DNA of 64,000 nt from Bacillus sp. ISL-45 (GTDB lineage: Bacteria > Bacillota > Bacilli > Bacillales > Cytobacillaceae), in contig NZ_JAGGQQ010000008.1 of the NCBI RefSeq assembly GCF_018613195.1, forward strand, positions 124,001-188,000, read 5' to 3'. The translations under genes and the position numbers were made by a program. This document shows positions 9,577 to 39,840 of the stretch, piece by piece. Positions within the stretch are counted from its first letter, which is position 1, and every line of letters starts with the position of its first letter. A model generated the notes under the pieces. The model was not told the DNA's origin. It saw only the letters and a list, made by a program, of their open reading frames with translations, and made no database searches.

Positions 9577-9717
9577 ATGAAAAAACCTTATTTACAAAAC
9601 AGGGAGGAAACACAAAATGGCATACCAACCAAAATCTTACCGCAAATTTGTGGCGACTGCTGCTACTGCAACTCTAGTTGCATCTGCAATCGCTCCAGTT
9701 GCAGGCGCTGCATCTAA
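9577..9717 (+). CDS. possible 46-codon leader ORF overlapping S-layer start out of frame
   Basis: ATG 9577 follows GGAGG with a 4-base gap and opens a frame beginning MKKPYLQNREET. It runs past the S-layer ATG (9617) in a different frame and stops at 9715-9717. The last part is Cys-rich only because it reads the S-layer signal-peptide DNA out of frame. The peptide is not recognised; if translated, its role would be regulatory (initiation coupling or competition). It may be fortuitous. Confidence 0.3.
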   Translation: MKKPYLQNREETQNGIPTKILPQICGDCCYCNSSCICNRSSCRRCI

Positions 9718-18630: not shown

Positions 18631-18669
18631 GTGACAGGCACCTCCCATTTTATGGGAGGTGCCTGTCAC
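18631..18669. repeat. REP-like palindrome, copy 1
   Basis: Perfect 17-bp arms starting GTGACAGGCACCTCCCA, loop TTTTA. It lies 6 bases after the nuclease stop and 21 bases before the transposase ATG, forming the left flank of the transposase gene. Confidence 0.95.
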
Positions 18670-19248: not shown

Positions 19249-19296
19249 AAAGGTGACAGGCACCTCCCAGTAGCTGGGAGGTGCCTGTCACCTTTT
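19248..19296. repeat. REP-like palindrome, copy 2 (bidirectional terminator)
   Basis: Perfect 23-bp arms (19248-19270 and 19274-19296), loop TAG, with A-run left and T-run right. It fills almost exactly the gap between the transposase stop and the stop of the convergent SLH gene (19299), so it can terminate both. Confidence 0.95.
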
Positions 19297-19298
19297 AC

Positions 19299-21281
19299 TT
19301 AATATCCAGGATATCTTCCACCAAGAGTAATAGCGTGAAAGCTGTTTCCATCTGCATCCTTGATCTTGGCGGCTCCTGTTGATGTAATGGTTACTTCGGC
19401 ATAGCCGTCATGCGGAATTTTCGGTCCATCGAAGGTTAAATCGACATATTGATCAACACTATTGGCTGAATAGGCCGTTATGTTCCTGGTTGGTACATCA
19501 CTATCAGGAACGGTAATGGTAAAATCAACGCCATCCACTAACCCTTCTAACCAAACGTTTTCGCTGAAATGCAGCCTCAGTGTATTTTGAAAATTAGGAT
19601 CATCTGAAGACGAGTAAACCCACGCTTGTTTCAGATAAGGAAGCTGATTCGCCCCATCGACTACAGCCTGTAATGAAGCGTAATCTGTAATGGTAGCAGC
19701 GTTCATCTTAATTTCGCTTAGGTAATTATGTTTATTCTCATAGATGATACTCGTAAGTTTCCTGTTATAAACCAATGAACTTAAATATTCACTTACATAA
19801 TCTACAACGTTAACAGAATCCGGAGAGAAGGCGAGATGGACTAAATGCTCAACCCTTACTGCTTCTGAAGATGAGTATATAGTAGAAGAGAAATCTCCTA
19901 CATCATTTCTTGCAGGGGCCTGATATTGGACAGTATCTTTAAGTTCTGCTTGCAGCTTATGTGAATTATTAAATGTAATCGGCGCATTAAAATGAAGAAC
20001 GAGCAATGGATTATCCTCCACAGTCGTATCCCATTCAATCGATGCAAGGTCTGCTTTGTTATAGTCCTGATCTGAGCTTTCATTTGTGACTTGCAGCACA
20101 TCTATAACTTCGTTTATTTGTGTAGTTGCAAGTGTTGCAGCACTTAACTCTGCATTGAATTTTATTTTAATGGTACTGGAAACTGTATCTTTATCATAAA
20201 CGAAACGATAGTGATTGAAATTCTTGATATCTATTTGAGCAATTTGATGCTCTTTGAATGAAATGATTTTGCCATTCGAATCTGTTTCATATACCTGGAT
20301 ATACCGGCCGACTTGAGCATTTTTAATTTCGGCTGACCTTGTAAATGAAATCACACTGGCAGGGAGATCACTTCCAGCATTCGGCGTTGAAACAGATTGT
20401 TCAGAAACCTGATAATAGGTAGGATTGACTGTTTCAGATTCCAAGAAAATGGCAGTTGATCCATATGTGAAACCTAAAGCGGATAAAACAGCTAATTGGG
20501 CTGCAGGTCCTTCAACTGGCGCAGTAGTTCCACCGTCATTCTGCCCCGGAGGAGTGCTTTCTCCAGGAGGAGGGGTAACAATGCTAGGAGGTGGTGTAAC
20601 TGTCTCATCTGCTGGAGGAACATTCACGCTGTCTTCTGGCACTTCAATAAAATCTGACACTGTTTGATTCTCCGCACGATAAATAAATGCCGCCATTTGT
20701 CCTCTCGTTACAGCCTTACCAGGTGCGAAGGATGCAGCAGAAACACCAGCAGTGATTTTATTTTCCAGGATTGATCCTACATAACCCGAGAACCAACTGT
20801 TAGCAGGAACGTCAGTGAAGCTGGTTTTCACGCTTGAAGCTTTCAGGCTATAGCCAAGGCTCAACATTTTAGCCATTTCTGCCCTTGTTACCGGCTTGCC
20901 AGGAAGGAAATGCTCCTTGTCCAACCCGCTCATGATGCCCTTTTCGACTAAAGCTGCAACAGAGCTGTAGTACCAAACTCCAGATGGAACATCTTTAAAC
21001 TCGGGGTTTTTAGCAGCCTTTCCATCCAACTCCAAAGCTGAAGCAAGAATCACCGCAGCCTGGGCACGTGTAATCTCTTGATTCGGCCGATATGTACCGT
21101 CAGCAAATCCTTTTATAATCCCTTTCTCAGTCAGGTCAAGAACCGCTTCTGAAAAATAATTGCCAGAGTATACGTCTGAAAATCCGTTAGACGCTGCTTC
21201 TGCGCTATAAGGCACGGCACTGGCAGCTACGACTGCAGACACACCAGCAGCCAAAAATTTATTGTACTTATCTCTCTTCAT
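19299..21281 (-). CDS. SLH-domain surface protein of unknown function
   Basis: 660 residues. Signal peptide (residues 1 to about 29, YSAEAAS). Three canonical SLH domains lie between about 31 and 205: GFADGTYRPNQEITRAQAA, PGKPVTRAEMAKML and PGKAVTRGQMAAFIYRAE. A Pro/Gly linker follows (PPPSIVTPPPGESTPPG), then about 400 residues with no family I recognise, containing beta-rich segments such as LRLHFSENVWLEG. The C-terminus could be an S-layer-like Ig or adhesion region. SD AGGGGGA lies upstream on the minus strand. It should sit on the pyruvylated wall polymer. It is convergent with the transposase and shares its palindromic terminator. Confidence 0.85.
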   Translation of the reverse strand: MKRDKYNKFLAAGVSAVVAASAVPYSAEAASNGFSDVYSGNYFSEAVLDLTEKGIIKGFADGTYRPNQEITRAQAAVILASALELDGKAAKNPEFKDVPSGVWYYSSVAALVEKGIMSGLDKEHFLPGKPVTRAEMAKMLSLGYSLKASSVKTSFTDVPANSWFSGYVGSILENKITAGVSAASFAPGKAVTRGQMAAFIYRAENQTVSDFIEVPEDSVNVPPADETVTPPPSIVTPPPGESTPPGQNDGGTTAPVEGPAAQLAVLSALGFTYGSTAIFLESETVNPTYYQVSEQSVSTPNAGSDLPASVISFTRSAEIKNAQVGRYIQVYETDSNGKIISFKEHQIAQIDIKNFNHYRFVYDKDTVSSTIKIKFNAELSAATLATTQINEVIDVLQVTNESSDQDYNKADLASIEWDTTVEDNPLLVLHFNAPITFNNSHKLQAELKDTVQYQAPARNDVGDFSSTIYSSSEAVRVEHLVHLAFSPDSVNVVDYVSEYLSSLVYNRKLTSIIYENKHNYLSEIKMNAATITDYASLQAVVDGANQLPYLKQAWVYSSSDDPNFQNTLRLHFSENVWLEGLVDGVDFTITVPDSDVPTRNITAYSANSVDQYVDLTFDGPKIPHDGYAEVTITSTGAAKIKDADGNSFHAITLGGRYPGY

Positions 21282-21427: not shown

Positions 21428-21466
21428 GTGACAGGCACCTCCCAGCTACTGGGAGGTGCCTGTCAC
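21428..21466. repeat. REP-like palindrome, copy 3
   Basis: Perfect 18-bp arms (GTGACAGGCACCTCCCAG and its complement), loop CTA. Unlike the other copies it lies between two divergent gene starts, not at a gene end. Confidence 0.95.
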
Positions 21467-21537: not shown

Positions 21538-22536
21538 ATGACATATAGAGTGTGGGCGATCAGACTGGTAGTGACTCTAGTTTTGCTTGTTGCTGGCATC
21601 GGGGGATTCAACTACTGGATGGATCCGATGTGGATGTATGGCGGGGCGCATGAGTTCAACGATGTCCAGGACACGATCAATGAACGCCAGCAGAAAACAA
21701 ATCGGATAAAGTTCCAGCCTTTCAGCGTCGATACTCTGTTGATTGGCAGCAGCCGGAGCACCTATATCGACCAGCATGAATTCGAGGGCATGGATGTGTA
21801 CAATTATTCTGTGGCAAATATGTCGGTGAAAGAATATGAGAGTTATATTGCCTTCGCAAAAGAAAATAGCAAGAAAGAAATCAAGACAGTCATTATCGGT
21901 CTGGACTTCTTCAAATCAAGCTTGGCAGAGAGTAAGGCGCCATTATCCATCTATCCTTATGCAAAAACACTGGACGAGCCATTTGTACGCTGGAAAAATA
22001 TCATTTCATATGATCTTACGAGATACTCTTTCTATAACTTTAAAGCTTCCATAAAAGATGAACCTGTCTTCGTCAGGACCTATGACCGGCAGAATGTCGC
22101 CAGCACGATCAGACTCTCAAAAGAGGATGCAGACGAAGAGCTGCAGAAAAAGGTAGAGAAATTCACGACAACCTTCTACGGAGATTATGAATACAACCCG
22201 AACTACAAAAAAATCCTGCAAAATATAAAAGACAAGAATCCGGACACAAAATTCATTGTGTTCACTACTCCGATATCGGAGCCGTTATTCCAGGCGCTGA
22301 TCGATTCAGGTGCCTACCCGCATTATGAAAGATGGCTCAGCGAAGTTACCGCTGTATTCGGCAGCGTCTATAATTTCATGGACATCAACACTGTAACAAA
22401 AGATACCTCAAACTACTTCGACGGCCACCACTTCTACCCAGAAGTCGGAACAATGATCGCCCGTCGCATCAGCATGGATAACCCGCCAGACGTCCCATCA
22501 GACTTCGGCAAAATAGTGACAGGCACCTCCCAGTAA
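21538..22536 (+). CDS. membrane-anchored SGNH-like protein (possible acyltransferase/esterase)
   Basis: 332 residues. One N-terminal transmembrane segment (about 7-25), with the rest extracellular. The block LLIGSSRSTYID resembles the SGNH/GDSL nucleophile region (GSSRS), and DGHHFYPEVGTMIARRI near the C-terminus places an Asp and His where the catalytic D-x-x-H usually lies. The pattern fits AlgJ/DltD-like proteins that acylate or deacylate surface polymers. The stop codon (TAA 22534-22536) is the loop of palindrome copy 4, and the last six residues (VTGTSQ) are encoded by its left arm, so the original C-terminus may have been altered. SD AGGTG lies 8 nt before the ATG. Confidence 0.75.
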   Translation: MTYRVWAIRLVVTLVLLVAGIGGFNYWMDPMWMYGGAHEFNDVQDTINERQQKTNRIKFQPFSVDTLLIGSSRSTYIDQHEFEGMDVYNYSVANMSVKEYESYIAFAKENSKKEIKTVIIGLDFFKSSLAESKAPLSIYPYAKTLDEPFVRWKNIISYDLTRYSFYNFKASIKDEPVFVRTYDRQNVASTIRLSKEDADEELQKKVEKFTTTFYGDYEYNPNYKKILQNIKDKNPDTKFIVFTTPISEPLFQALIDSGAYPHYERWLSEVTAVFGSVYNFMDINTVTKDTSNYFDGHHFYPEVGTMIARRISMDNPPDVPSDFGKIVTGTSQ

Positions 22537-22558
22537 CTGGGAGGTGCCTGTCACTATT
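22512..22558. repeat. REP-like palindrome, copy 4 (supplies a stop codon)
   Basis: Perfect 22-bp arms (22512-22533, 22537-22558). The 3-base loop is TAA, which is the in-frame stop of the SGNH-like gene. Confidence 0.95.
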
Positions 22559-22644
22559 AATATTGTCCTATTTTTGAAAAATATATAATATTTTGTCAAA
22601 AATTGTTGTATAGTTATTTAGAACCATAACTTTATAACTATTCC

Positions 22645-22735
22645 GTATAAGGGCAAACTCGTCGAAAGGCGGGGACGCAAAGCTTCGGGTCTAAGGTAGG
22701 TCTTTCCTATTATGACAGCCGGGTTGCCGAGAAAC
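22645..22735 (+). promoter_or_regulatory. cyclic di-GMP-I (GEMM) riboswitch
   Basis: The conserved GEMM blocks occur in order: AAGGGCAAAC, a hairpin closed by CGAAAG, GGGACGCAAAGC, CTTCGGGTCTAAGG, then the P3 arm with ATGACAGCCGGGTTGCC closing on GGCAAAC. The Gly-side base equivalent to G20 of the Vibrio Vc2 aptamer (third G of GGGCAAAC) is G, so c-di-GMP rather than cGAMP is expected. It lies about 90 bases upstream of the RHS toxin start, on the same strand. Confidence 0.92.
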
Positions 22736-22749
22736 TTTACTCCTAGAAA

Positions 22750-22815
22750 TACTCCTTTTATTACCGGTAGCCAAACGGGCAGTCATGTCCTTTTTTATGC
22801 GGTAAGGAAGGGGTA
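22750..22815 (+). promoter_or_regulatory. Shine-Dalgarno-sequestering stem (riboswitch expression platform)
   Basis: TACTCCTT (22750-22757) pairs with AAGGGGTA (22808-22815, one G-T), and TTACCG (22761-22766) pairs with CGGTAA (22800-22805), separated by a small internal loop. The 3' strand contains the whole RBS AAGGAAGGGG (22804-22813) of the RHS gene, so the stem would block translation. The loop also holds a TTTTTT run at 22791-22796. Confidence 0.65.
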
Positions 22816-22821
22816 TTTTTT

Positions 22822-25800
22822 GTGAGGTTAAAAAGAAGTATTAGTATTTTCTTTGCTGTATTGCTGCTGTTTAGCAGTATAGCAGTCTATCCGGCAAATG
22901 CGTTTGCGGAGAAAAAGGCTTATGAGCAGGAGTTTTATTCAAATCCAGACAATCTGCTCAGCTTGCTGCCGGAAACCAATTCATACAAGCCAGCCATGAA
23001 TCCGGCGCAGGGAATCTCACCTGCTGGAGTTCCGAATGCATCTCCGGAGGTTCCGAACAGCGATGTTTCCCCGAGGAGGCAGCAGGAAGCTCCGCCAGTT
23101 GACAATTCAGCTGAAGAACCGCCGGTGAAGATCGAATCTGGCTTCCTTGAACTGAAGGAAGAGAATGTATCCGTACCTCAGGTGCTTCAGCCTTTCGGGA
23201 TCACCAGGGATTATTCCAGCAACAATGAAGAATCTGGACCATTCGGAAAAGGGTGGACCACAAGTCTTGATTCAAGGCTTCAGATGTATGCTGAATATGC
23301 GATGGGTGAGTTCCGCCAGGATGGCAGCACCCAGAATTATGATTTTGAAAAGAAAGATCCGAATGGTTATATCACCGAGTATGACGGTGATAAAATGACC
23401 AACTATGAACTCCATAAAGGTGAATACAAACCAGCTGAAAATGGAGATGTGCTTACAAGGAAAGAGAAGGACGAATATACCGTCGTCACGAAGGATAAAA
23501 CGACTTATACCTATTATGGATATTATGCTCCATGGCGGGAAGAACAAAGCGCTAAAGCAGGTAAAATGATCAAGCGTACCGACCGTTATGGCAATTCTAT
23601 TAAATACGATTACAATAACTCCGGCCAGCTGACCGCCATGACTGATGATTCAGGCCGCACTGTAAAAATCAACTGGCAGGGCAAGCAAATAAGTGAAATC
23701 ATCAATCCTGAAAACAAAAAGATTGTTTTTACTTATGATGATGCAAAGCGTTTAAAGAAAGTCGATTATCCAGGCAATAAAACGACGATCTATTCTTATG
23801 ATAGCGCTGGCAGGATCTCTGGGATCACTAATGGGGAAAATGAGACCACTTCTTTTACATACGACAGCAAGAACCGCGTCGAAATAGTTAAGGGCCCGGA
23901 TGGAAAATTGATCTGTTCTTATGAATATTCCACTGATGGCTCCAATAAGCTGACTAAGGTTATTAAAGAAAATGCGCTAAATGACAAGTGGACATACGAA
24001 ATTAAAAATGACAAAGTGGCGAAGGCGACAAATCCGATCGGGGATGTAACCAGCTTTTCTTATAACGACAATGGCAAAATGACAAAAATGGTTTCCAAGA
24101 CGGGTACCGAGTCCTTTACTTATGATGACAAAGACAGACTGGAAACAAAGACCGATATTTTCGGGACAAAAACAACTTACAAGTATGAAGACCCTTGGAA
24201 TCTTGTAAAATCCATTTCCGATACCAATGGGAAGTCAGTTTCCTTTAAATATGGCCAAAATGGAAAGCTGGAGAAGAAAACGGAGAATGGAATTGAATCG
24301 GCCTATGGTTACGATTCCAAGGGCAAAATGCTCTGGACAAAGGATTCCTCAGGACATCAAATGGACTTTGTCTATGATTCTTTTGGGAATTTACGCGAAG
24401 TAAAAAATGCAAAATCAGAAACGACTTATTATAACTTCAATACAATGGGGCAGCTCCAGAACGTGCAGGAGCCGAGCGGACAAAAAGAAATCTATGAATA
24501 TAATGCTGATGGATATGTTTCCAAAGTCACTTTTGCTGACGGGAAATCCATAGGATACACATATGATAAAGCCGGCCGTCTGAAAACCTTGACGGATAAG
24601 CAGGGCCGGGAGACTGTCCATAACTATTATTCAACCGGAAGGCTTAAGGATATCACGAATCCGGCTGGCCAGACCTTCTCATACACTTATGATGATGCAG
24701 GAAGGGTGAAAAACGTTACAGGGCCGGGGAACCAGGCATCATCCTATGAATGGGACGAGCTTGGTAGATTGCTAAACTATCAATCTATTCAGGGGACGAC
24801 CTCCTATGTTTACGGAGAGCATGGTCCGGATAAAGTGGTTTCCCCTGGCGGCACTCTGGAATACAAATATGATCCCAATGGCCAGGTAGAACAGGTGAAG
24901 GATCAGCTTGGCCGTACGACAGTTTATACCTACACGGCAGCACAGCAGGTCGAAACCATTAAAGATCCTTCAGGAAGAATCCAGAAATATCAATACGATT
25001 CGGCCGGCCGCCTTAAAAAGGAAACCTCTTTTGATGGCCAGACCGTTGAGTATGGATACAACGATTTGGGACTGTTAGAGGAGAAAGTGTATAGCGACAA
25101 AACGAAGGAAGCTTACTTTTACGATGCTGCCCGCCAGCTATACAAAAAAACCTTCCGTGATGGAACGGAAGAATGGTATACCTACTATCCAGGCGGGAAG
25201 ATTGAGACTGTAAAAAATGCCCTTGGTGAAGTGACAAGATACGTCTACGATCGGAATGGACAGGTATCTGAAGTCACGAATCCAGAAGGCGGGAAGACTT
25301 CCTATAAATATACGCCAGATGGCCTTCTGGCTTTGAGCGTCAATGCGCTTGAGCAGGAGACCAGCTATGAATACGACGAATTGGGCCGCCTGAAAAAAAT
25401 CACAGGCCCAGAGGACAGCACACAGACCTATAAGTACGACAGTCTGAACAGGCTGGTAGAGTCAACTGATGTAAAGGGCGGAGTCCACAAATGGGCCTAT
25501 GATATAGAGGACAATACGACAGTATACGAACGCCCAGATGGAAACAAGCTGAAGTATAAGTACGATCAGAGCGGCCAGCTGATTGAATTTGTCAATGCCA
25601 TGGGAGAAAAAACAAGCTGGCAATATGACAAAGCAGGTCGTCCGAAAGAAATCGCAGACGCATTAGGGCAGAAAACAACCCTTTTATACAATGAACTCGA
25701 CCAGATTGTTAAGGAAACAATGCCGGGCAATATCGTCATAGAGTATAAATACAACGAAATGGGTCAGCTGGCTGAAGTTACCGACCCTTTAAAACTTAAA

Positions 25801-28800
25801 ACAACATTAAACTATGATTCTTTCGGGCGTGTGACCACCATGACCGATGTGAAGGGAGAAACCGTCTATTCATATGATGTGATGGGCCGGCTCCTTTCAA
25901 TGAAAAATCCGCTTGAACACGAGATCAAGTGGGAATACGACAAGCTTGGCAGGGTTGAAAAGGTTTTAGACCCGCTTGGCGGACTGACAGAGTTCCGCTA
26001 TAACGCGCTTGGACAGCCGGAATACTTGAAAAAGGCAAACGGCGCTGAGCAGCATATGGAGTATGACTTGCTCGGAAGGCTGAAGAGCCAGAGGGACCCG
26101 CTTGGAAGGGAAACGGTCTATGCCTATGATGAATTCGGCAATCTTAAGGAAACAACAGATCCTTTGGGCCAGAAAACAAAGATGGAATACAGCCCTGCTG
26201 GTGAACTGCTTAAAGTGATCGATCCAGCTGGCCATGAAACTCAGTACCAGTATGACGCGCTTGGACAGCTGACAAAAATCATCAATCCACTGAACCAGGA
26301 AACGGCTTATCAATATGATAAGGCTGGCAGGATGACTCAAGTGAAACTGCCGAATAAGGCGGTTACTGCTTACAAATATGATGATCTTGGACGTGCAACA
26401 GAAATCATTGATCCCATGGACGGCATTACAACCAGAAAGTATGATGCCGGTGGAAATGTGATCGAGGAAATTGATCCTATGGGCAAGAGTACGACCTTCG
26501 CATATGATCCTGCAGGACGTATTCTCTCCCAAAAGGACCGCCGCGGCGAGACAACCAGCTTTGAGTATCACGATAAAGAAGGGTTGATGAAAATCATCGA
26601 TCCTGCCGGCGGGGTGGTCACTCAAAAATTCGATGCCCTTCAGCAGCTGGTAGAGGAAATGGACCCGCTTGGGCATAAGACGACCTATAAGTACGACGCC
26701 CTCAGCAGGTTAACAGAAGTGAAGGATGCACTCGGCCATTCTGAAAAAAGAACGTATGACTCTGTCGGGAATGTTTTAGCTTTTACAAACAAGAAGGGCA
26801 GCAGCACAAAGTATGAGTACGACCTAGCGGGTAACATGACAGGAATGGTAAACCCTGCAGGCGGAAGGTTCTCTTACCAATATGATGCGCTGAACCGTTT
26901 GACTGCGGAGACCAATCCAGATGGCGGACGAACTGTATATCAATACGACAAGGTTGGCAATCTTCTTCAGGAAAAAGATCCAGAAGGAGGATCCTGGTCT
27001 TATCAATATGATGCTCTTGGGCGGAATACGAAAGCAAGCGATCCGCTACAGCGAGTGACCAATTACCAATTTGACGCTGCTGGGAACATCAAGGAAATCA
27101 CGGATCCTGCTGGCGGTGTAACTTCCTTCGAATATGACTTGCTGTCGAGGGTCATCAACAGGACAAATCCGGAAGGTGAAAGCTGGAAATATAAATACAA
27201 CAAGGCCGGATATCTTTTAGAGGAGATCGACCCGCTCGGAAACAAAACAAAATATGAATATGATGCAGAAGGCAATCTGTTGAGTGAGACAGACCCGCTG
27301 CAGCATCAAACTTCTTATCAGTATGACGAAATTGGGCGTCCTGTAGAACAGACGGATGCAAAAGGCTTTAAAACAAGCTGGACGTATGACAAAGCGGGGA
27401 ATCTTTTAACTGCGGAGGATGCTGCTGGGGCGGTTACCAAGTTCAAATACGACCCAGTAAACCGTTTGACAGAACAGATCTCGCCGCTTGGCAACAGCAG
27501 TAAATTCAGCTATGACCAGGTTGGCAATGTCATCAAAGAAACAAATCCGGCAGGAAGCAGCACAACCTATCAATATAACTCTTTGAATCTATTAACTGGT
27601 GTTGTCGACGCGATGGCCGGGACAGCTCAGTATGAATATGATCAAATGGGACAGCTCCTTAAGCAGACGGATCCTAACGGGAACAGCAGGAGCTGGCAGT
27701 ACGACAAAAATGGACAGGCAGTAAGTGAAACGAATGCCTTGGGTTACCAGAAAGGGTACTCGTATGATGCAGCAGGCCAGGTGAAAAATATGGTCTCTCC
27801 TAATGGCATTGCTGCTCAGTTCTCCTATACGCCTCTTGGGCAGGTAAGCGCAATCGATTATGGTGATGAGCTTGTTTCCTACCAGTATGATATGGCGGGA
27901 AGAATGACTGCAATGGCTTCACCTGCTTCCGAAGAAAAATATCAATATGATGCGCTCGGAAGGCTTGTCCTGCAGGATAATGTGAAATTGGGCAAACAGC
28001 TTGCCTATCAATATGATGCAGTCGGGAATATGCTTGAAGTCACAAATAGCGAGGACCGCACAACCGTTTATACGTATGACGAGCGGAACCAAATGTCTAG
28101 TGTCAAAGATCCGGATGATCATCTTACGACATTTGAATACGATGGTCTTGGCAGGGAAATAAACAGGAATCTTGCCAACGGAAACGGTATTTCCAGAAGC
28201 TATGATCAAGACGGTAATCTTGCCAGCATCATCAATAAAAATGCAGATGGCATACTCTCTTCTTTTGATTATCAGTATGATAAAAACGGCAACCGAATCC
28301 TTCAGACAGAAGAAGACGGAGCCCAGACTAAATACAAGTATGACCAAATGGACAGGCTGATCGAAGTCCTGTATCCAGAAGAGAAAATCCGCTCATTAAA
28401 ACAGGAACCCGACACACCTAATGACGGAAAAAATGAAGGCAGCAGTGAGGAAAAGAAAACAGGGACATCCAAGGGCCAGAAACAAAAGGCAGCTGCAACA
28501 TCCTATTCCATTGCGAAGAATGACGGTAATGGGCAGGGGAATGGCAGCGAACCTAGTCCGAAGCCAGATAACGATGCTGCGGATGATGCTGAACCAAATC
28601 CTGATGCTGAAGAAAACCAGGACGAAACTGCTTCTGGAAAAGAAGACAGCAAGGATCAACCAGGTCAGGGAAGCGGCAACGGCAACGGAAATGGCAATGG
28701 CAATGATGCTGGCGAAGAAGAGTCCGGATCCGATCAGGAAAAGGGCAATGGAGACCAGAAAGATTCGGAAAAAGGAAATGGCAATGACAACGGTAATGGC

Positions 28801-31260
28801 AAGCCAGAAACCGAAACAGGAAAAGACAAGAGTGGAAATGGAAACAATGGTAATGGTAAAGACAGCAAGGGCAAAGGGAAAAACGAGAAATCACCGCTGG
28901 CATGCGGGCCAGATGGAAGCATGGAACTTGACCCTGAGTCCATCCAGAACAACGATCTGCCAGACTATTTAATCGAGCCGCAAAGCAAGGTACAATACAC
29001 GTACGATGCAGCAGGCAACCGCCTGTCGATGACCAATGATGAAGTTACGGTTCATTATGCATACAATGCCTTGAATCAGCTGACTTCGGACGGCAGCACG
29101 AACTATTCGTATGATAAGAATGGAAACATCATCTCAAAAGCAGGCAATGAAGGTGAAGTTAACTATTCATATAACAACACAGACCAGTTAACTTTGGCAG
29201 AGTTTGAGGATGAAAGCTATGTCAGCTATTCCTACGATGGTTTGGGCCGGAGAGTTTACCGGGAGGAAATGTCCTGGAAGGATCGTGACGGGATCAAAAA
29301 GGGGCAGGGCAAGGAGAAGGGCAATAACGGAAAAGGCGAAGAAAAAAGAAATGAAAACGCCAATAAGCAGAACGGTAAAGGAAACGGAAAAGCCTCCTGC
29401 GCTGATGAAGCTGTAAAACCTGGAAAGGGACAGGGACCATTCAATAATCCGGGACAGGGCAAGAAAATCGGACTGTACAAGAAATATGGCGAAAATGGCC
29501 AGGACCATGTTTACCATAAGGAAACTACTTATTTATATGAAGGATTATCAAATGTCCTCAATAAAGAGTACAGCGCATCTGGTTCTCCATATGCCGAATA
29601 TTATAACGGCCCGGATAATCAGATTGTTTCCCGTAAAATGTTCGGCCTGCATGGTTTGTCCAACCCAGCGCATGACCCGGATTTGAAAACAACTGGCGGT
29701 CTTCTGTACTATCAGTATGATGGGACAAGAACCGTTTCGGAAGTGACTGACCGCCATGGCGACATCATTGAGCGGTACCGTTACGACGCCTTTGGAGGCA
29801 TCTTTACAGGAACGACCTCTCCATACAATTATCATGGCTACACAGGCATGAGGTATGATGGGAAGACAGGCCTTGTGGACATGAATGCGCGCTGGTATGC
29901 ACCGGCTGCAGGAAGGTTCATGACGGAAGACACGTATCCGGGAGAACAGAACCGTACACAGACATTGAACCGATATTCCTATGTCCTGAACAATCCTGTG
30001 AACCTATGGGACCCGACAGGACATATGGCCGAAGCGGTTGTCGGCACAAGCATTACAATGCCGGGAGGATTTGCAGATTTACCTGAATGGGTTAGGCCAT
30101 ATCAAACAGGAGAAGTCGTAGATCCGGATAACAAACGCTTTTCTACCATGTGGGTAGCAAAGTACAAAAGTCCAATCTATAACGAAACACCAACAGCCCT
30201 GATTTCGACTGAACAGGAAGAGAGATTCTACCGTCAGACATACCAGAAGACAAAGACAACCACATGGTATTATGATTATCAGAGATATGAAGATATGGTA
30301 GAACATCGACAGCCGCGAGGGCTGATCTATACCGATTATTTCCAGGAAACCCTCACATACCAGTGGAGCGATGAACTAAGTGCCGAGGAAGTAGCCAATC
30401 AAAACCAGGAAGATATCGCCAACTATGGAATCCCGCCCTATGCCAGCATCGTCTCAAGGCAGGTATCCATGCCGCAGCAGTATAATCGGTATGTGCAGAA
30501 GCAAATCGAGCAGCACTTTAAATCGATCCAGCCAGCTGCGCCTAAACCGCCAAAAGCAAAATCCGGCAAGGGCAAGGGAACACTATCATTTGGCCTTGAT
30601 TTCATTCCGTTCGTGGGCACAGCCAAAGCCTTCCAGCAAGCCTTCATCGGCCAGGATCTGGTAACAGGCAAGACCCTTTCCACAGGAGAAAGATGGGCAG
30701 AAGGAATAGGCGGAGTGATGTCCTTCATCCCAATCCCAGGCATGAAGCATGTAGGGAAATACGGGGTCGAGGGATTAATTTCTATTTCTGATGACGCATG
30801 GGGTGCAGGCAAGCAGCTTGTTGAGCACTCGGATGATTACGTTCCGTTGCTTAAGGAGCCTGCAGCCGGGGACAATATAGGGATTATGTTGAGGCCTCAG
30901 GGTACGGGTAATAATAATGTTAAATCTCCTAACCTACAGACAGGTAAAGGATATGATGCAGGTGATGCTCCTGTACGTATTGAAGGTCCATGGACAATTA
31001 ATGATTTAAAGCAAGGTTTATTGGGGCATTCGCCAAGGGGACTTAATAAACCAGATTTACATCATGGTGGACAAATGCCAGGCGGAGCAAAGCATGAGAT
31101 AATTCCTTCGCAACATCGAAATAATTCAACGCTTCACCAGAATAAATATAATCAAGGTGTTACTCCTGAAATGCGTCAATCAGATAGGCAGTTGCATTGG
31201 TGGTATAGAGCTAGGGAACAAGGTGCCGATGAAATATTACCGGAATGGATCTACGATTAA
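22822..31260 (+). CDS. RHS/YD-repeat polymorphic toxin (WapA-like) with HNH/LHH-type C-terminal nuclease
   Basis: 2812 residues from GTG 22822 (RBS AAGGAAGGGG, 8 nt). Signal peptide (to about residue 30, YPANAFAE). A DUF6531-like entry region (ITRDYSSNNEESGPFGKGW) is followed by dozens of YD repeats to about residue 1850 that form the RHS shell. Two Gly/Asn/Lys-rich low-complexity inserts interrupt it (about 1855-2045 and 2150-2225). The RHS-associated core ends near 2400 (YNYHGYTGMRYD, NARWYAPAAGRFMTED, YVLNNPVNLWDPTG). A PT-TG-like pre-toxin segment follows (SFIPFVGTAKAFQQAFIG), and the tip has PDLHHGG (His2747/His2748), IIPSQHRN and a further LH, resembling LHH-type HNH/Endo VII nucleases. 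It is a contact-dependent toxin exported to kill relatives; an immunity gene follows. Control by c-di-GMP is predicted from the leader. Confidence 0.92.
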   Translation: MRLKRSISIFFAVLLLFSSIAVYPANAFAEKKAYEQEFYSNPDNLLSLLPETNSYKPAMNPAQGISPAGVPNASPEVPNSDVSPRRQQEAPPVDNSAEEPPVKIESGFLELKEENVSVPQVLQPFGITRDYSSNNEESGPFGKGWTTSLDSRLQMYAEYAMGEFRQDGSTQNYDFEKKDPNGYITEYDGDKMTNYELHKGEYKPAENGDVLTRKEKDEYTVVTKDKTTYTYYGYYAPWREEQSAKAGKMIKRTDRYGNSIKYDYNNSGQLTAMTDDSGRTVKINWQGKQISEIINPENKKIVFTYDDAKRLKKVDYPGNKTTIYSYDSAGRISGITNGENETTSFTYDSKNRVEIVKGPDGKLICSYEYSTDGSNKLTKVIKENALNDKWTYEIKNDKVAKATNPIGDVTSFSYNDNGKMTKMVSKTGTESFTYDDKDRLETKTDIFGTKTTYKYEDPWNLVKSISDTNGKSVSFKYGQNGKLEKKTENGIESAYGYDSKGKMLWTKDSSGHQMDFVYDSFGNLREVKNAKSETTYYNFNTMGQLQNVQEPSGQKEIYEYNADGYVSKVTFADGKSIGYTYDKAGRLKTLTDKQGRETVHNYYSTGRLKDITNPAGQTFSYTYDDAGRVKNVTGPGNQASSYEWDELGRLLNYQSIQGTTSYVYGEHGPDKVVSPGGTLEYKYDPNGQVEQVKDQLGRTTVYTYTAAQQVETIKDPSGRIQKYQYDSAGRLKKETSFDGQTVEYGYNDLGLLEEKVYSDKTKEAYFYDAARQLYKKTFRDGTEEWYTYYPGGKIETVKNALGEVTRYVYDRNGQVSEVTNPEGGKTSYKYTPDGLLALSVNALEQETSYEYDELGRLKKITGPEDSTQTYKYDSLNRLVESTDVKGGVHKWAYDIEDNTTVYERPDGNKLKYKYDQSGQLIEFVNAMGEKTSWQYDKAGRPKEIADALGQKTTLLYNELDQIVKETMPGNIVIEYKYNEMGQLAEVTDPLKLKTTLNYDSFGRVTTMTDVKGETVYSYDVMGRLLSMKNPLEHEIKWEYDKLGRVEKVLDPLGGLTEFRYNALGQPEYLKKANGAEQHMEYDLLGRLKSQRDPLGRETVYAYDEFGNLKETTDPLGQKTKMEYSPAGELLKVIDPAGHETQYQYDALGQLTKIINPLNQETAYQYDKAGRMTQVKLPNKAVTAYKYDDLGRATEIIDPMDGITTRKYDAGGNVIEEIDPMGKSTTFAYDPAGRILSQKDRRGETTSFEYHDKEGLMKIIDPAGGVVTQKFDALQQLVEEMDPLGHKTTYKYDALSRLTEVKDALGHSEKRTYDSVGNVLAFTNKKGSSTKYEYDLAGNMTGMVNPAGGRFSYQYDALNRLTAETNPDGGRTVYQYDKVGNLLQEKDPEGGSWSYQYDALGRNTKASDPLQRVTNYQFDAAGNIKEITDPAGGVTSFEYDLLSRVINRTNPEGESWKYKYNKAGYLLEEIDPLGNKTKYEYDAEGNLLSETDPLQHQTSYQYDEIGRPVEQTDAKGFKTSWTYDKAGNLLTAEDAAGAVTKFKYDPVNRLTEQISPLGNSSKFSYDQVGNVIKETNPAGSSTTYQYNSLNLLTGVVDAMAGTAQYEYDQMGQLLKQTDPNGNSRSWQYDKNGQAVSETNALGYQKGYSYDAAGQVKNMVSPNGIAAQFSYTPLGQVSAIDYGDELVSYQYDMAGRMTAMASPASEEKYQYDALGRLVLQDNVKLGKQLAYQYDAVGNMLEVTNSEDRTTVYTYDERNQMSSVKDPDDHLTTFEYDGLGREINRNLANGNGISRSYDQDGNLASIINKNADGILSSFDYQYDKNGNRILQTEEDGAQTKYKYDQMDRLIEVLYPEEKIRSLKQEPDTPNDGKNEGSSEEKKTGTSKGQKQKAAATSYSIAKNDGNGQGNGSEPSPKPDNDAADDAEPNPDAEENQDETASGKEDSKDQPGQGSGNGNGNGNGNDAGEEESGSDQEKGNGDQKDSEKGNGNDNGNGKPETETGKDKSGNGNNGNGKDSKGKGKNEKSPLACGPDGSMELDPESIQNNDLPDYLIEPQSKVQYTYDAAGNRLSMTNDEVTVHYAYNALNQLTSDGSTNYSYDKNGNIISKAGNEGEVNYSYNNTDQLTLAEFEDESYVSYSYDGLGRRVYREEMSWKDRDGIKKGQGKEKGNNGKGEEKRNENANKQNGKGNGKASCADEAVKPGKGQGPFNNPGQGKKIGLYKKYGENGQDHVYHKETTYLYEGLSNVLNKEYSASGSPYAEYYNGPDNQIVSRKMFGLHGLSNPAHDPDLKTTGGLLYYQYDGTRTVSEVTDRHGDIIERYRYDAFGGIFTGTTSPYNYHGYTGMRYDGKTGLVDMNARWYAPAAGRFMTEDTYPGEQNRTQTLNRYSYVLNNPVNLWDPTGHMAEAVVGTSITMPGGFADLPEWVRPYQTGEVVDPDNKRFSTMWVAKYKSPIYNETPTALISTEQEERFYRQTYQKTKTTTWYYDYQRYEDMVEHRQPRGLIYTDYFQETLTYQWSDELSAEEVANQNQEDIANYGIPPYASIVSRQVSMPQQYNRYVQKQIEQHFKSIQPAAPKPPKAKSGKGKGTLSFGLDFIPFVGTAKAFQQAFIGQDLVTGKTLSTGERWAEGIGGVMSFIPIPGMKHVGKYGVEGLISISDDAWGAGKQLVEHSDDYVPLLKEPAAGDNIGIMLRPQGTGNNNVKSPNLQTGKGYDAGDAPVRIEGPWTINDLKQGLLGHSPRGLNKPDLHHGGQMPGGAKHEIIPSQHRNNSTLHQNKYNQGVTPEMRQSDRQLHWWYRAREQGADEILPEWIYD

Positions 31261-31284
31261 TAATCTTTTTTGGAGTTGAATAGA

Positions 31285-31728
31285 ATGGACTATGTTGAGT
31301 TTCTTGAAATTGTTAATGAAACCAGAAATAAAAGACCGATATGGTTTGGACTTGAGTCAGAACCTAAAGGTAATGATAGTCAAATTGAGAAAGTTGAAAA
31401 AGCATTATCTCTTTCCCTGCCCGAAGAATATAAACGCTTTGTAAAAGAGTTTGGGGGTGGCTATTTCGCATTCACAAATATATTCTCAGTGAATGATCTT
31501 AGTGATTGGTTTATTGTCAACTTAAATGATCAAATTGGACTTGTTAAAACAAATTCCTTTTTAGCTTTTTCCGATATTGAAACTGGTGATTATTATGGGT
31601 TTACGCTTGAGAAAGGGGTTTGTGGTTCGAGAGTTATGTTCTATGACCATGAAATTAATAAAGTTGAAGAAACAAAGTATGAAAACTTATATGAATATAT
31701 TGTAGACGTTGGACTTAATCCTAGGTAA
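31285..31728 (+). CDS. SUKH (SMI1/KNR4-like) immunity protein
   Basis: 147 residues from ATG 31285, with GGAG 9 nt upstream; an earlier in-frame TTG at 31270 precedes that SD and is less likely. The hallmarks of the SUKH fold are the segment IEKVEKALSLSLPEEYKRF and the following FGGGYF, a tryptophan in LSDWFIVN, and an acidic C-terminal helix. SUKH proteins are the commonest immunity family next to HNH-type polymorphic toxins, and the gene begins 24 bases after the toxin stop. It should bind and neutralise the C-terminal nuclease in the cytoplasm. A terminator follows, closing the toxin-immunity unit. Confidence 0.88.
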   Translation: MDYVEFLEIVNETRNKRPIWFGLESEPKGNDSQIEKVEKALSLSLPEEYKRFVKEFGGGYFAFTNIFSVNDLSDWFIVNLNDQIGLVKTNSFLAFSDIETGDYYGFTLEKGVCGSRVMFYDHEINKVEETKYENLYEYIVDVGLNPR

Positions 31729-31752
31729 ATGTATCTATTTGTTACTTTAGAG

Positions 31753-31790
31753 CCTCGAAAAGTTTAAAACTTTCGAGGTTCTTTATTTTT
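31753..31790 (+). terminator. terminator of the RHS-immunity unit
   Basis: An 8-bp stem CCTCGAAA/TTTCGAGG (31753-31760, 31771-31778), extended by A-T pairs, is followed by TTCTTTATTTTT. Confidence 0.8.
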
Positions 31791-31799
31791 AGGGGTGAT

Positions 31800-31910
31800 A
31801 TGGGTGCAAGTGTAAAACCAATTAGCTCATTTGATAATCGAAGTGCAGGTGCTTATTTAGACCATAAGTTATTAAATTATCTGCATGGAACAAAAGTAAG
31901 AGTTATATAA
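31800..31910 (+). CDS. 36-codon orphan fragment, possible displaced toxin piece
   Basis: ATG 31800 has AGGGG 4 bases upstream and opens a 36-residue frame (MGASVKPISSFDNRSAG at its start). I do not recognise it. Lying just behind a polymorphic toxin operon and in front of other decayed modules, it may be a leftover of an older toxin C-terminus. It may also be chance. Confidence 0.3.
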   Translation: MGASVKPISSFDNRSAGAYLDHKLLNYLHGTKVRVI

Positions 31911-31999
31911 CGGAGGGATTAGAGAATGAGTGAGTTTTCTTTTAAGATGAAATTTTTTATTCACAGATTGCATTGTTTCAGTATGGGCTTGATAACCCT

Positions 32000-32122
32000 T
32001 TAATGATTGGAATGAAAATCATGTAAATTAGGGTTTTCGTTGAGAGATCGTTCAGTTTCCCGTGCTTTATATACATTTGAAAAGGTTTCGTCTGTCATGT
32101 TCTCCAGTTCTTTTCCTGCTGC
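32000..32122 (-). pseudogene. remnant paralogue of the 33132-33986 membrane protein gene
   Basis: The minus-strand frame from 32122 to the stop at 32000-32002 begins AAGKELENMTDETFSNVYKA. That matches SAGKELEASTDKTFNYIYDS in the C-terminal region of the protein encoded at 33132-33986 (11 of 20 identical, no gaps), on the same strand. An in-frame stop lies directly upstream (32123-32125), so only a short tail survives. Confidence 0.6.
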
Positions 32123-32151
32123 TTAGACTCAGACTTACATATCTCTGCATT

Positions 32152-32256
32152 AATCACTTGGGATTCCTCCAAAGAATACAATATGGTTTATTAGGTGGAG
32201 AGCCTATCCCAAGAATACTTGGTAAAATTAATCAAACTAAAAATTTTTTTCTGTAA
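32152..32256 (+). pseudogene. possible 3' tail of a displaced toxin
   Basis: The plus-strand frame ending ...GGEPIPRILGKINQ and stopping at 32254-32256 lies 12 bases before the immunity-like gene at 32269, the usual toxin-immunity spacing. The family is not recognised and the upstream part of the frame reads through the antisense remnant, so only the last 30 or so codons could be real. Confidence 0.25.
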
Positions 32257-32268
32257 GGATGTGACAAG

Positions 32269-32759
32269 GTGAAACTAGATAATAATGTGTTAGAGAGAAT
32301 AAAAAACATAAATTGGTTTGAAAACTGCGGTATGCAAGTAAACACTCAAATTAACATTCCAATAATTTATGTTAACTCATGGGAGGATGCTAAAGAAACA
32401 TACCAACTTCCTGATTGGGAAAATACAACTTTAGAAGCAAGGAATGAATTAACAAGTTTTCTACATAGTAAGTTTCGAGCGCAATATTCAATTTGGAATC
32501 AATTAGTTAGAGATGCTAAAACGTTTATTGATGTTGAGGTTATACCAAAAATTAATATTATAAAAGAAACAAATAATTTAGATGAAATATTTATTGATAG
32601 TGTAAAATGGGATATTTTAAACGCAATTATGGAAGGAACATTCAAAAATTGAATCTTAGAAAGACATTTTTCCTTGATTTACTAACTATTTATGAATCGG
32701 GAAATTTTGCTTGCGGTTGGAATGGAAAGTGGCCAGAAGGATCATTATTAGTTTATTAA
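32269..32759 (+). pseudogene. frameshifted immunity-like gene
   Basis: From GTG 32269 (AAGGA 9 nt upstream) a 127-residue frame ends at 32652 after NAIMEGTFKN. Directly afterwards, in another frame, IQKLNLRKTFFLDLLTIYES and then CGWNGKWPEGSLLVY continue to a stop at 32757-32759. The Trp/Gly-rich ending (CGWxGKWPxG then VY) looks to me like the normal C-terminus of a small family often found as immunity proteins in Bacillus toxin loci (from memory, unnamed). A single shift near 32640 (the sequence there has an A5 run) would rejoin the halves into a protein of about 160 residues. Either the gene is broken or there is a sequencing error. Confidence 0.6.
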
Positions 32760-32821
32760 TGGTACCGAATGAAACCATAAGAGAATAATTTTCTCTTTCG
32801 AAAATTACTAGGGGGATTAGA

Positions 32822-33071
32822 ATGGGGTTGCAGGAAACAAATGAGATTGATGTAATTAGTTTTAATAAAAATAATGGTGTAGTTACCTTAGGGATAATTG
32901 ATGCTTTGGATTGGGAAGATTTATTCTGTTTATGAGGTAGCAAGTGGAAATGATTTTGAAATTAAAGTATATTATAAAAATACTCTTCCACAATCAAGTT
33001 ACAATTTCCTTGAACAAGTATCCGGGATTATAAAAGGAGCTGGATTCGAATTCAGCTATGAAGTTGGTTAA
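32822..33071 (+). pseudogene. DUF6572-like gene with internal deletion and frameshift
   Basis: ATG 32822 follows a GGGGG-type SD. The frame begins MGLQETNEIDVISFNKNNG and continues VVTLGIIDALDWED, then stops early (LFCL). The other frame picks up immediately with KIYSVYEVASGNDFEIKVYY and ends at 33071 after GAGFEFSYEVG. Both halves match the start and end of DUF6572-type proteins as I remember them (small proteins common in toxin-immunity loci), but the central stretch of some 20 codons is gone. The break is at a GGAAGATTTATT junction, suggesting a deletion. Confidence 0.6.
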
Positions 33072-33084
33072 TAGTTCTGCGATA

Positions 33085-33129
33085 AAAGTGACAGGCACCT
33101 CCCAGCTTCTGGGAGGTGCCTGTCACTTT
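33085..33129. repeat. REP-like palindrome, copy 5
   Basis: Perfect 21-bp arms (33085-33105, 33109-33129), loop CTT. It separates the decayed modules from the stop of the minus-strand gene at 33132 and acts as its likely terminator. Outside the arms, TCTGCGATAAA left and TTTATATCGCAGA right extend the dyad imperfectly. Confidence 0.95.
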
Positions 33130-34215: not shown

Positions 34216-36285
34216 TTGAAAAAGTATCCATTCAGCAACAAGGCAATCAAAGCGATTATCGCAGCATCGATCGCACTATCACCACTGGCATCCACTGGAA
34301 CAATACTGCAGCAAACGACAGTATCTGCTGCCGAAGTAACAACTGTTGATACAGCGGTCCAGCGCGTGACTCTTATTTATAGCAATCTTGGTGAGCAGGA
34401 GCTATTCAAGACAGTGGCTGAATCACTTAAGAACGATTTCACCTTCACATCAGAAGATTGGACATATGTCCTGACACAGCCAGTCAGAACCCAGATGCAG
34501 GCAAGCATGGATGCTGCCGGTGCTGATGTTGTGGCTGAACAAGTTGTAAAAGAAATCGCTGCATTCGTCTATGACTCTAACGCCACAAATCTTGCGACTA
34601 ACTACGCGGCATTCAAAGCATCAGCCAGCGGACAAGCAATTACTAAGGTTATGGGAGCCGGAAAGATTGACTTGATGCTTCAATTATTAGTAGATACAGA
34701 AAAGCTGCTATGGAGCGAAAAGTACGAAGATAAACTTCTAACCGCTCTGGAAAACGGCACTTTGGAAACTGTAATTGATGAGATCAGGGCTGAGGTCATC
34801 GCCTCCAACCCGGCTTACGAGCAACTGAACAAAGACCTTGCTGCCAAAATGGGCACAAACTTTGAAGGTCTCCTTCAAATAAAGAACCGTATTAATGAAA
34901 AGTTGGTTGCAAAGGGCATTATCACGTCAACTGACCTTGAAACATTAAAGGATGCTTTCCTGATTGCGGCGCTAAAGGCTGGCAACCCTAACGATGGCGG
35001 ATCGACCCCTCCTCCTGGCGGTGGCGGCGGCGGAACATTGCCACCAACTAACCCGGATCCGAATGTAATCTCGCTTCCTAAGGATGCTGCGGAGGTAGTA
35101 CGCGAGAAGAATCCATCCGGTATGGTAGAAGTAGTAACAAAGATTGTTCCTGAAAAGGTTGCAGACATCGTGGCCCTGATCACTGGCGAAAAGAACACGG
35201 TAGAGGTAGTCCTTGAAGCAGCAGCACCGGGCGAAAAGGCAAAGGCAGAAGTTCCAGCTGCATTGTTCACAGAAGCAGCTAAGAAAAACCCAAATGCAGT
35301 AATTGAAATCTCAACTGCAGAAGCTTCTTATAAATTGCCTGCTTCTGAGATCAAGATTGCTGACCTGGCTGCAAAGCTTGGCACAACAGCAGATAATGTC
35401 AAAATCAATATCTCAGTGAATGTCGTAAACAAAACGGTCAAAGGCTTAACCCTTGCTTCCGATGTCATCGACTTTACAATCGAAGCTGTTGCAGGAACAA
35501 GGAAAGAATACATCTCTACATTCTCTTCATATGTAGAGCGTGAAATCATGGGCGACACAGACTTCAATAAAGGCAAATCTGTCGCGGTAAGATTGAATGC
35601 AGATGGAACATTCTCTGCGATCCCAACTCTTTTCGATGGCAAAACAGCAACAATCAAGTCACTGACAAACTCTGAATACACAATCGTTGAAAACAGCAAA
35701 ACATTCACAGATGTGAAGAGCGGCTGGGCGAAGGAATATATCGACACACTTGCTTCCAAGTACATCGTGTATGGAAAAGCAACTGGTGAATACGAGCCAG
35801 GCAAGCACATGACTCGTGCTGAATTCGCAGTCCTGCTGGTCCGGGCCCTGGGCCTTCCAACAGCTAAGTACGATGGAAGTTTCAAGGATGTTAAAGGAAT
35901 CGAATGGTTCGCTAAAAATGGCGAACTGACTGCAGCGGTTAAGTACGGTGTGATCAAAGGGAAGGGCGATGGCACATTCGCTCCGAACGAGAAAATCACT
36001 CGTGCCCAGGCAGCGGCAATGATTGAGCGCGCGATGAAGATTTCCTTCGTGAAATATGATTTCAGCCAGCTGGATAAAACGAAGACACTGAACGACTTCA
36101 AGGATGCCAAGCAGGTTGGCTCATGGGCGAAGTCAGGTGTCGAAGCGGTTTATCAGGCAGGAATCGTCAAAGGTAAAGGGGACGGTACATTCAATCCGAA
36201 TGGCTACACGCAGCGGAATGAAATGGCAGCCATCCTTGCTAACTTCCTGGTAACGGCGAAACTATTAGACGACACGTTCAAATAA
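34216..36285 (+). CDS. surface protein with three C-terminal SLH domains
   Basis: 689 residues from TTG 34216 (SD GGGGG, about 8 nt). Signal peptide to about residue 40 (TTVSAAE). The N-terminal part (about 40-250) is helical and unrecognised; a Gly/Pro linker (PPPGGGGGGTLPPTNPDPN) follows; the middle (about 285-490) is a beta-rich region reminiscent of putative surface-exposed repeats. Three SLH domains lie between about 495 and 685: KHMTRAEFAVLLVRALG, NEKITRAQAAAMIERA and YTQRNEMAAILANF, the last with a degenerate TRAE motif. SLH domains at the C-terminus, opposite to the other three SLH proteins here, suggest an enzyme- or adhesin-type display protein. The stop is directly followed by palindrome copy 6. 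Confidence 0.85.
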   Translation: MKKYPFSNKAIKAIIAASIALSPLASTGTILQQTTVSAAEVTTVDTAVQRVTLIYSNLGEQELFKTVAESLKNDFTFTSEDWTYVLTQPVRTQMQASMDAAGADVVAEQVVKEIAAFVYDSNATNLATNYAAFKASASGQAITKVMGAGKIDLMLQLLVDTEKLLWSEKYEDKLLTALENGTLETVIDEIRAEVIASNPAYEQLNKDLAAKMGTNFEGLLQIKNRINEKLVAKGIITSTDLETLKDAFLIAALKAGNPNDGGSTPPPGGGGGGTLPPTNPDPNVISLPKDAAEVVREKNPSGMVEVVTKIVPEKVADIVALITGEKNTVEVVLEAAAPGEKAKAEVPAALFTEAAKKNPNAVIEISTAEASYKLPASEIKIADLAAKLGTTADNVKINISVNVVNKTVKGLTLASDVIDFTIEAVAGTRKEYISTFSSYVEREIMGDTDFNKGKSVAVRLNADGTFSAIPTLFDGKTATIKSLTNSEYTIVENSKTFTDVKSGWAKEYIDTLASKYIVYGKATGEYEPGKHMTRAEFAVLLVRALGLPTAKYDGSFKDVKGIEWFAKNGELTAAVKYGVIKGKGDGTFAPNEKITRAQAAAMIERAMKISFVKYDFSQLDKTKTLNDFKDAKQVGSWAKSGVEAVYQAGIVKGKGDGTFNPNGYTQRNEMAAILANFLVTAKLLDDTFK

Positions 36286-36334
36286 AAAAGTGACAGGCAC
36301 CTTCCAGCTTACTGGAAGGTGCCTGTCACTTTTT
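36285..36334. repeat. REP-like palindrome, copy 6 (compensatory variant)
   Basis: Perfect 23-bp arms (36285-36307, 36312-36334), loop CTTA. The arm reads CTTCCAG/CTGGAAG where the other copies read CTCCCAG/CTGGGAG, so both strands changed together. It overlaps the stop codons of the two convergent genes around it and ends in T-runs on either strand. Confidence 0.95.
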
Positions 36335-37118: not shown

Positions 37119-37343
37119 ATATATAGTCCTCCAAAACTAGTTATCTTCCTCATCTATTGTAGGATTAAACTATTAATTATTTCCAGTTACAAAATATACC
37201 TTTCCATTGTATATATAACCCTGTTAAACTATTTTAAGGAAGTAAAGTTACACCTTTATTAAAATTATGACAATATACAACAAATTATACTATAAAATAT
37301 GGTATTATTATTAGGGAATTTTTATAAAAATTGGAGGATTGTA

Positions 37344-39708: not shown

Positions 39709-39840
39709 AGTTCTACTGACCGGCGATGCCTCCTGCCCGTTACCCATGGAGGCACTCGACCATGCTGTGGGATTGACAAGTTCTCTCCTTAGACACTTCG
39801 GTTGTCAGTAGTGTGGTGTGAGGGTGGGTTAGATGCCCGA
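39709..39840 (+). ncRNA. EAR (eps-associated RNA, epsC motif) antitermination element
   Basis: A compact GC-rich island in an AT-rich gap. CTACTGAC (39713-39720) pairs with GTCAGTAG (39804-39811) as an outer helix; TGCCTCC (39727-39733) pairs with GGAGGCA (39748-39754); GACAA (39775-39779) pairs with TTGTC (39802-39806) as an alternative. A distal GGGTGGGTTAGATGCCC follows. Position (after the kinase/phosphatase genes, before the sugar-nucleotide genes) and length match EAR in Bacillus eps operons, which lets RNA polymerase read through distant terminators. The assignment rests on structure, location and memory of the motif, not on a covariance search. Confidence 0.75.

Follow-up and report, generated by a model that had tools for sequence, protein, structure and literature searches.

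A class I riboswitch for cyclic di-GMP (c-di-GMP) stands directly ahead of a gene for an RHS polymorphic toxin in Bacillus sp. ISL-45, within the 64,000-nucleotide stretch of contig NZ_JAGGQQ010000008.1 analyzed here (positions 124,001 to 188,000, forward strand; the window, whose own coordinates are used throughout). Because the pairing is kept at all 20 loci with this type of RHS N terminus, comparison of the sequences strongly supports the view that c-di-GMP sets the output of the toxin. The switch is probably of the OFF type, acting on the whole RHS toxin and possibly on its immunity gene as well; we infer the ligand, the direction, and control by read-through from sequence relationships and predicted folds.

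The riboswitch and the RHS toxin gene

The aptamer (22642 to 22731, forward strand) scores 81.6 bits with the Rfam c-di-GMP-I model RF01051, whose gathering score is 35; the match spans the full length of the model (positions 1 to 87), and the alignment marks zero broken pairs. The E value is 1.7e-14 for the whole window and 1e-16 when a 401-base stretch is scored, and 90 nucleotides separate the aptamer end from the GTG start of the RHS open reading frame (ORF). A first-pass annotation, which had proposed a c-di-GMP-I riboswitch ahead of an RHS toxin on the same strand and named the GEMM covariance model as a check, is thus borne out on both counts. The only other gathering-level Rfam match in the window is an epsC RNA at 39721 to 39839; mir-944 and similar sub-threshold hits were rejected as chance matches to a palindrome at 22516 to 22554. 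Abutting the aptamer is an inverted repeat, ATAGTTAT-N16-ATAACTAT (22610 to 22641, found by eye and without an assigned strand), whose arms are identical in the window and in three relatives from the same genus (G007, G006, and G004) and weak in the first of two copies of the locus in Bacillus suaedaesalsae; it may be an operator, a promoter region, or an extra leader helix.

The RHS gene (22822 to 31260, forward strand) codes for 2,812 residues from a GTG start, has no internal stops, and was assigned with Pfam and TIGRFAM domains. The translation opens with a signal-peptide-like N terminus of 29 residues (22822 to 22908, by eye), followed by DUF6531 (residues 101 to 172, 23122 to 23337; E 3.3e-10), 36 RHS-repeat stretches along the protein, the RHS repeat-associated core (residues 2321 to 2401, 29782 to 30024; TIGR03696, E 2.6e-18), and a pre-toxin TG domain, PT-TG (residues 2586 to 2649, 30577 to 30768; PF14449, E 5.5e-13). 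The variable C-terminal toxin domain (30769 to 31257) is weakly like the LHH nucleases of the HNH/Endo VII group, with the last 160 residues matching PF14411 at E 0.0081 and 16.8 bits, below the cut-off of 23.3. A SUKH-type immunity gene follows on the same strand (31285 to 31728; PF14568, E 8e-21), with an ATG at 31285 in an ORF that opens with TTG at 31270. We found no terminator-like site in 30600 to 31800, from the toxin end through the immunity gene, and three weak promoter-like matches on the forward strand of that interval. All 42 RHS_repeat matches in the genome at E 0.001 or better lie inside this single ORF. With repeats and core, a variable C terminus, and an immunity gene behind it, the locus is by its predicted features an RHS polymorphic toxin locus, and the toxin is presumably antibacterial.

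Conservation across an RHS lineage with variable toxins

Relatives were sought with the first 293 residues of the RHS protein, which lie ahead of most of the RHS repeats. As a single-protein query these matched 4 of the 21 genomes of the genus and 20 of the 193 of the family, and a five-row N-terminal alignment matched 69 of 397 order-drawn genomes. Among named contigs the single protein gave 0 matches and the alignment 24 loci, of which the 8 best (L075 to L082) were examined and the 16 weaker (L083 to L098) left out. Full N-terminal relatives score at least 209 bits and generic RHS genes less than 50 bits in the family and order searches, and one full relative that is cut by a contig end scores 51 bits and was counted with the first group. 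With duplicates removed by contig and position, 20 loci remain, the window included. Four are in the same genus (the window, G007, G006, and G004), and the others are in Neobacillus rhizosphaerae (G127), Bacillus canaveralius (G029), B. suaedaesalsae (G195, two copies), Ornithinibacillus californiensis, Bacillales UBA6259, Cohnella luojiensis, and nine further genomes (G437, G239, G193, G464, G542, G276, G503, G211, and G402). There are 11 genus labels among them, with Cohnella and others, which are named separately, in addition.

Every one of these 20 distinct loci has a class I aptamer in front of the RHS gene on the same strand, 18 belonging to RF01051 and 2 to c-di-GMP-I-GGC, with N termini that diverge to 28 to 39% identity. 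The frame behind the aptamer is unbroken in 18 loci over the extent of sequence at each; it is broken after 346 codons in UBA6259 and after 84 in C. luojiensis (the L078/L080 loci), which could reflect decay or assembly error. Both leaders were kept for the association count, and the tests of direction below were also repeated without them. Among 20 more distant RHS genes (17 of 17 from regions L058 to L074 and 3 of 15 from L025 to L039, all with the ORF start visible), 2 have a same-strand class I aptamer, one in L125 and one in L108 that lies 438 nucleotides upstream; 1 has an aptamer on the other strand (L115), and 17 have none. The comparison of 20/20 with 2/20 gives a Fisher p of 3.4e-9, which is descriptive because the loci share ancestry. 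An earlier control set of 32 weaker RHS matches (L025 to L039 and L058 to L074) with 0 aptamers was set aside, as the leader was visible in only 2 of the 32. The aptamer therefore recurs when leaders of related rhs genes are compared, as the first-pass annotation had suggested doing, and its claim that the messenger sets the output of a contact-dependent toxin is strongly supported as regards c-di-GMP control; "contact-dependent" is carried over by analogy with WapA/Rhs only, contact-dependent killing being a feature of those toxins.

At L125 (2283 to 2371, minus strand), the c-di-GMP-I aptamer is accompanied by an ACTCC...GGAG-T7-GTG hairpin ahead of the distant RHS gene start. This hairpin resembles the ACTCC...GGAGT hairpin of the window's relatives, which suggests that the leader type is common to a second RHS subfamily.

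The toxin tails behind the conserved front differ. Over the last 120 residues of 13 RHS genes (the window and 12 relatives), no two resemble each other at E 1e-3. In most of them the core ends in a sequence like NRYAYVxNNPxNxWDPTG, from which G402 departs. Pfam searches with 10 of the 13 tails returned one TreTu, two EndoU (one below cut-off), one AHH, one GIY-YIG, and one LHH below cut-off, with the pre-toxin domain only in one and nothing in three. In two relatives (L040 and L041) there are downstream pieces with an RHS core, other tails, and small genes, which fit spare cassettes. The riboswitch is joined to the constant front of the gene and so would govern whichever toxin tail is present.

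Leader architecture and a predicted OFF switch

Between the aptamer and the GTG lies an expression-platform hairpin (22748 to 22817, forward strand; −26.6 kcal/mol) with a terminator-like stem and a T-run, the hairpin being followed by TTTT and then by the start codon. The stretch from 22735 to 22830 folds with a z score of −4.0, and 0 of 200 shuffles are as stable. The 3′ arm of the hairpin contains the Shine-Dalgarno sequence AAGGAAGGGG (22804 to 22813), and together with the T-run this means that one hairpin could both end transcription and hide the ribosome site. A GGAG site together with a T-run at the end of a hairpin before the start is also present in G007, G006, G004, both B. suaedaesalsae copies, B. 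canaveralius, and G211; in others the terminator is separate from the ribosome site. The window hairpin begins 16 nucleotides beyond the aptamer end and takes up no aptamer base, both in a scan of the downstream sequence and in a fold of the full leader, which gives the same hairpin. The aptamer 3′ strand (22712 to 22729) is predicted to double as an antiterminator strand by forming 16 pairs with a complementary switching strand at 22765 to 22786. In minimum-energy folds of the growing transcript, computed with no ligand, prefixes of 148 to 172 nucleotides pair AUGAC/GCC/GGUUGCCG (22712 to 22729) with CGGUAGCC/GGC/GUCAU (22765 to 22786), and the longer transcript then favors the hairpin over this rival helix. 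The GGUUGCCG:CGGUAACC part of the helix is kept in G007 and G004. The last 18 bases of the aptamer form with the platform a duplex of at best −20.7 kcal/mol, a value reached by 8 of 500 mononucleotide shuffles.

This layout is that of a known OFF switch. In the Cd1 riboswitch, the terminator strands (T and H) are both downstream of the aptamer and the antiterminator is formed by aptamer strand A with T, whereas the pilM ON switch builds its terminator with an aptamer strand (PMC9262584). By its predicted folds the window leader has the Cd1-type arrangement, with both terminator strands downstream and the aptamer 3′ strand forming part of the antiterminator, and we read it as an OFF switch because it matches Cd1 and not pilM. 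Class I riboswitches tested in Clostridioides difficile are described as uniformly OFF (PMC6200980). At low c-di-GMP, the aptamer 3′ strand would pair with the switching strand and the rival helix would keep the 5′ arm of the hairpin from its 3′ arm, such that RNA polymerase would read through and the Shine-Dalgarno sequence would be open. At high c-di-GMP, the bound aptamer would retain its own 3′ strand, the hairpin would form, transcription would end at the T-run just ahead of the GTG, and any full-length RNA would have its Shine-Dalgarno sequence buried. Toxin would then be made in low-c-di-GMP cells, which are motile or dispersing.

Pairing between aptamer and platform was also scored across relatives in 19 leaders (G006 was omitted from the 20 because it has the leader of G007), counting any aptamer-platform pairs and not those of the 3′ strand alone; p values are over 17 leaders, with G004 and G276 dropped as near-duplicates. 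Pairing exceeds that with shuffled platforms (Fisher p 1.5e-6; in 5 of the 19 leaders at most 1 shuffle in 100 does as well) and that with shuffled aptamers (p 3.1e-4). Without the UBA6259 and Cohnella leaders, the remaining 15 give p values of 8.0e-6 and 1.8e-3, respectively. N. rhizosphaerae has strong aptamer-platform pairing with a different sequence, as does Cohnella, in which the gene is broken. A thermodynamic sign score, positive in 19/19 leaders at full hairpin length, was set aside as biased toward positive values because the added aptamer always offers more alternative pairings.

Several observations weigh against an OFF switch. The full-length leader without ligand folds most stably as the hairpin, so the ON state would depend on kinetics. 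For the window alone, 12 of 100 shuffled platforms and 9 of 100 shuffled aptamers do as well as the real sequence; for G503, 74 of 100 shuffled platforms are as good, and for G437, G464, and G276, 63 to 69 of 100 shuffled aptamers are, so that G437, G503, and the G464/G276 pair offer little or no support. The complement in G542 sits upstream of the hairpin, and hairpin bounds were set by hand in 9 of the 19 leaders. Among published examples, one C. difficile gene behind a class I riboswitch rose with c-di-GMP, which the authors attribute to a promoter (PMC6200980), Bc2 of Bacillus thuringiensis is a proven ON switch (PMC4933901), and Bc1 has a mixed response in which terminators change and the ribosome site is trapped. 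The OFF direction is thus moderately supported over the 19 leaders and weakly for the window by itself; we favor it, but it is not proven.

An ON switch, in which c-di-GMP promotes read-through and sessile cells with high c-di-GMP make the toxin, is nonetheless unlikely. The precedent in Bc2, which stands ahead of a Bacillus adhesin, the opening of a terminator structure by c-di-GMP in Bc1, the G542 leader, which might act in this way, and the surface-protein genes and polysaccharide operon near the window gene would all fit it. However, pilM places an aptamer strand in its terminator and the window hairpin uses none, and the Bc2 terminator at +151 to +197, with an aptamer that lies 76 nucleotides after the start site, suggests to us an overlap with the aptamer 3′ end (PMC4933901). 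Calibration on the B. thuringiensis ON switches was dropped, as a marker family of the Bacillus cereus group and Listeria was found in 0 of 398 genomes. Because OFF geometry predicts less toxin at high c-di-GMP, as in sessile cells, the biofilm-linked toxin deployment proposed in the first-pass annotation is not favored.

Two further alternatives leave the aptamer in place and question what it does. The RHS gene may not be effectively controlled by c-di-GMP, through a decayed platform or another, dominant promoter, and there is just one promoter-like match on the forward strand ahead of the aptamer, weak and no more than shuffles give; retention of the aptamer at 20/20 loci, including those with the most divergent N termini, makes this highly unlikely. 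The same aptamer fold also includes binders of cyclic GMP-AMP (cGAMP) (PMC9262584). A different cyclic dinucleotide ligand of this kind has, in our view, the slimmest prospects of all, since the genome codes for 15 GGDEF domains and the residue equivalent to G20 of Vc2, the specificity position, is G in the window, as in c-di-GMP binders and unlike in cGAMP binders. G is also present in 18 of the 19 other aptamers of the same RHS type. In the remaining one (L081, 4719 to 4806, the second B. suaedaesalsae RHS copy) the residue is A, which is linked to cGAMP or mixed specificity and speaks for this alternative.

Host genome and neighboring genes

Twelve c-di-GMP-I riboswitches score above the RF01051 cut-off in the genome, and with the 15 GGDEF domains and 7 EAL domains this indicates that both signal and riboswitch class are normal for the host. 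The other riboswitches precede, among others, a Flp/Tad-type pilus-like locus, a response regulator, a 1,701-residue secreted protein, and small membrane proteins, all named by eye from translations. Two of the aptamers on contig C27, L013 (345837 to 345920) and L018 (304638 to 304721), both on the minus strand, each precede a similar membrane-protein-like ORF of about 45 residues, and L018 has A at the G20-equivalent position (by eye).

At 37299, 6.0 kb beyond the stop codon of the RHS gene, begins a polysaccharide operon that codes for Wzz, a kinase-like AAA protein, and CpsB/CapC, followed by the epsC RNA. The exopolysaccharide operon that had been placed about 6 kb away is thus present, but any functional tie to the toxin would be conjectural. 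Four proteins with SLH domains are encoded near the RHS gene (9617 to 12073, 12365 to 14737, 19299 to 21281, and 34216 to 36285), and the RHS gene therefore sits in a cell-surface gene cluster. We also note a near-perfect palindrome, GTGACAGGCACC...GGTGCCTGTCAC, whose pattern is matched exactly at 13 sites in the genome, every one of them on C27, one of 27 contigs. The six copies in the window (18631 to 18669, 19253 to 19291, 21428 to 21466, 22516 to 22554, 33088 to 33126, and 36290 to 36329) cluster around the S-layer and RHS genes, and one of them shares bases with the stop codon of the gene preceding the riboswitch. The inner stem letters co-vary in most copies (TCCC/GGGA, ATCC/GGAT, and TTCC/GGAA). 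Between the immunity gene and the copy at 33088, the interval from 31800 to 33070 has short ORFs and remnants, such as 32269 to 32652 (no Pfam match), which could be decayed toxin/immunity cassettes.

Relation to known systems and implications

The closest relative in design is Cd1 of the C. difficile flagellar operon, which shares with the window the aptamer class, the downstream terminator strands, the 3′-strand antiterminator, and transcriptional OFF control (predicted for the window). Cd1 differs in that it controls flagella, whereas the window target is an RHS toxin and its hairpin 3′ arm also carries the Shine-Dalgarno sequence (PMC9262584). Bc2 with its collagen adhesin gene in B. thuringiensis similarly places a c-di-GMP-I riboswitch before a Bacillus surface-protein gene with an intrinsic terminator adjoining the ORF, but it is proven ON and serves an adhesin rather than a toxin (PMC4933901). 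The gene itself resembles Bacillus subtilis WapA and other Rhs proteins, whose features are a secreted-type protein with an RHS core, a variable C-terminal toxin, and an immunity gene behind, and, as in relatives of the window, spare cassettes downstream. RF01051 is matched in 0 of 14 control genomes, B. subtilis among them, and B. subtilis wapA therefore appears to be without such a leader.

The established targets of c-di-GMP riboswitches are genes for motility, adhesion, and matrix, and titles and the starts of abstracts of open-licence PMC papers yielded none linking one to an RHS/WapA toxin. In Vibrio cholerae, tfoY lies behind a class I riboswitch. Low c-di-GMP induces the type VI secretion system there, and TfoY also fosters motility (PMC6618264). 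The window would be alike in that antibacterial toxin delivery would be armed at low c-di-GMP, alongside motility; the TfoY pathway relies on a regulator protein and a secretion machine, whereas the window aptamer is part of the toxin mRNA.

The finding is thus of a riboswitch on a polymorphic-toxin mRNA, with the link held at all the loci examined of this RHS lineage, and it predicts, in a form open to direct test, which cells produce Gram-positive RHS toxins of this kind: probably those low in c-di-GMP. If control is indeed OFF, it would echo the low-c-di-GMP arming of the Vibrio type VI system, carried out on the toxin mRNA, and any swapped-in toxin cassette would fall under the same control, since the aptamer is attached to the gene's constant portion. 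We offer as speculation, with a low chance of being right, that this is a Bacilli RHS lineage with a dedicated c-di-GMP OFF switch, in which sessile cells also stop renewing immunity, since the immunity gene is close behind and no terminator-like site was found between the two, and motile or dispersing cells would be armed against settled siblings as well as rivals. If so, the second messenger would set kin by lifestyle, whatever toxin cassette is loaded.

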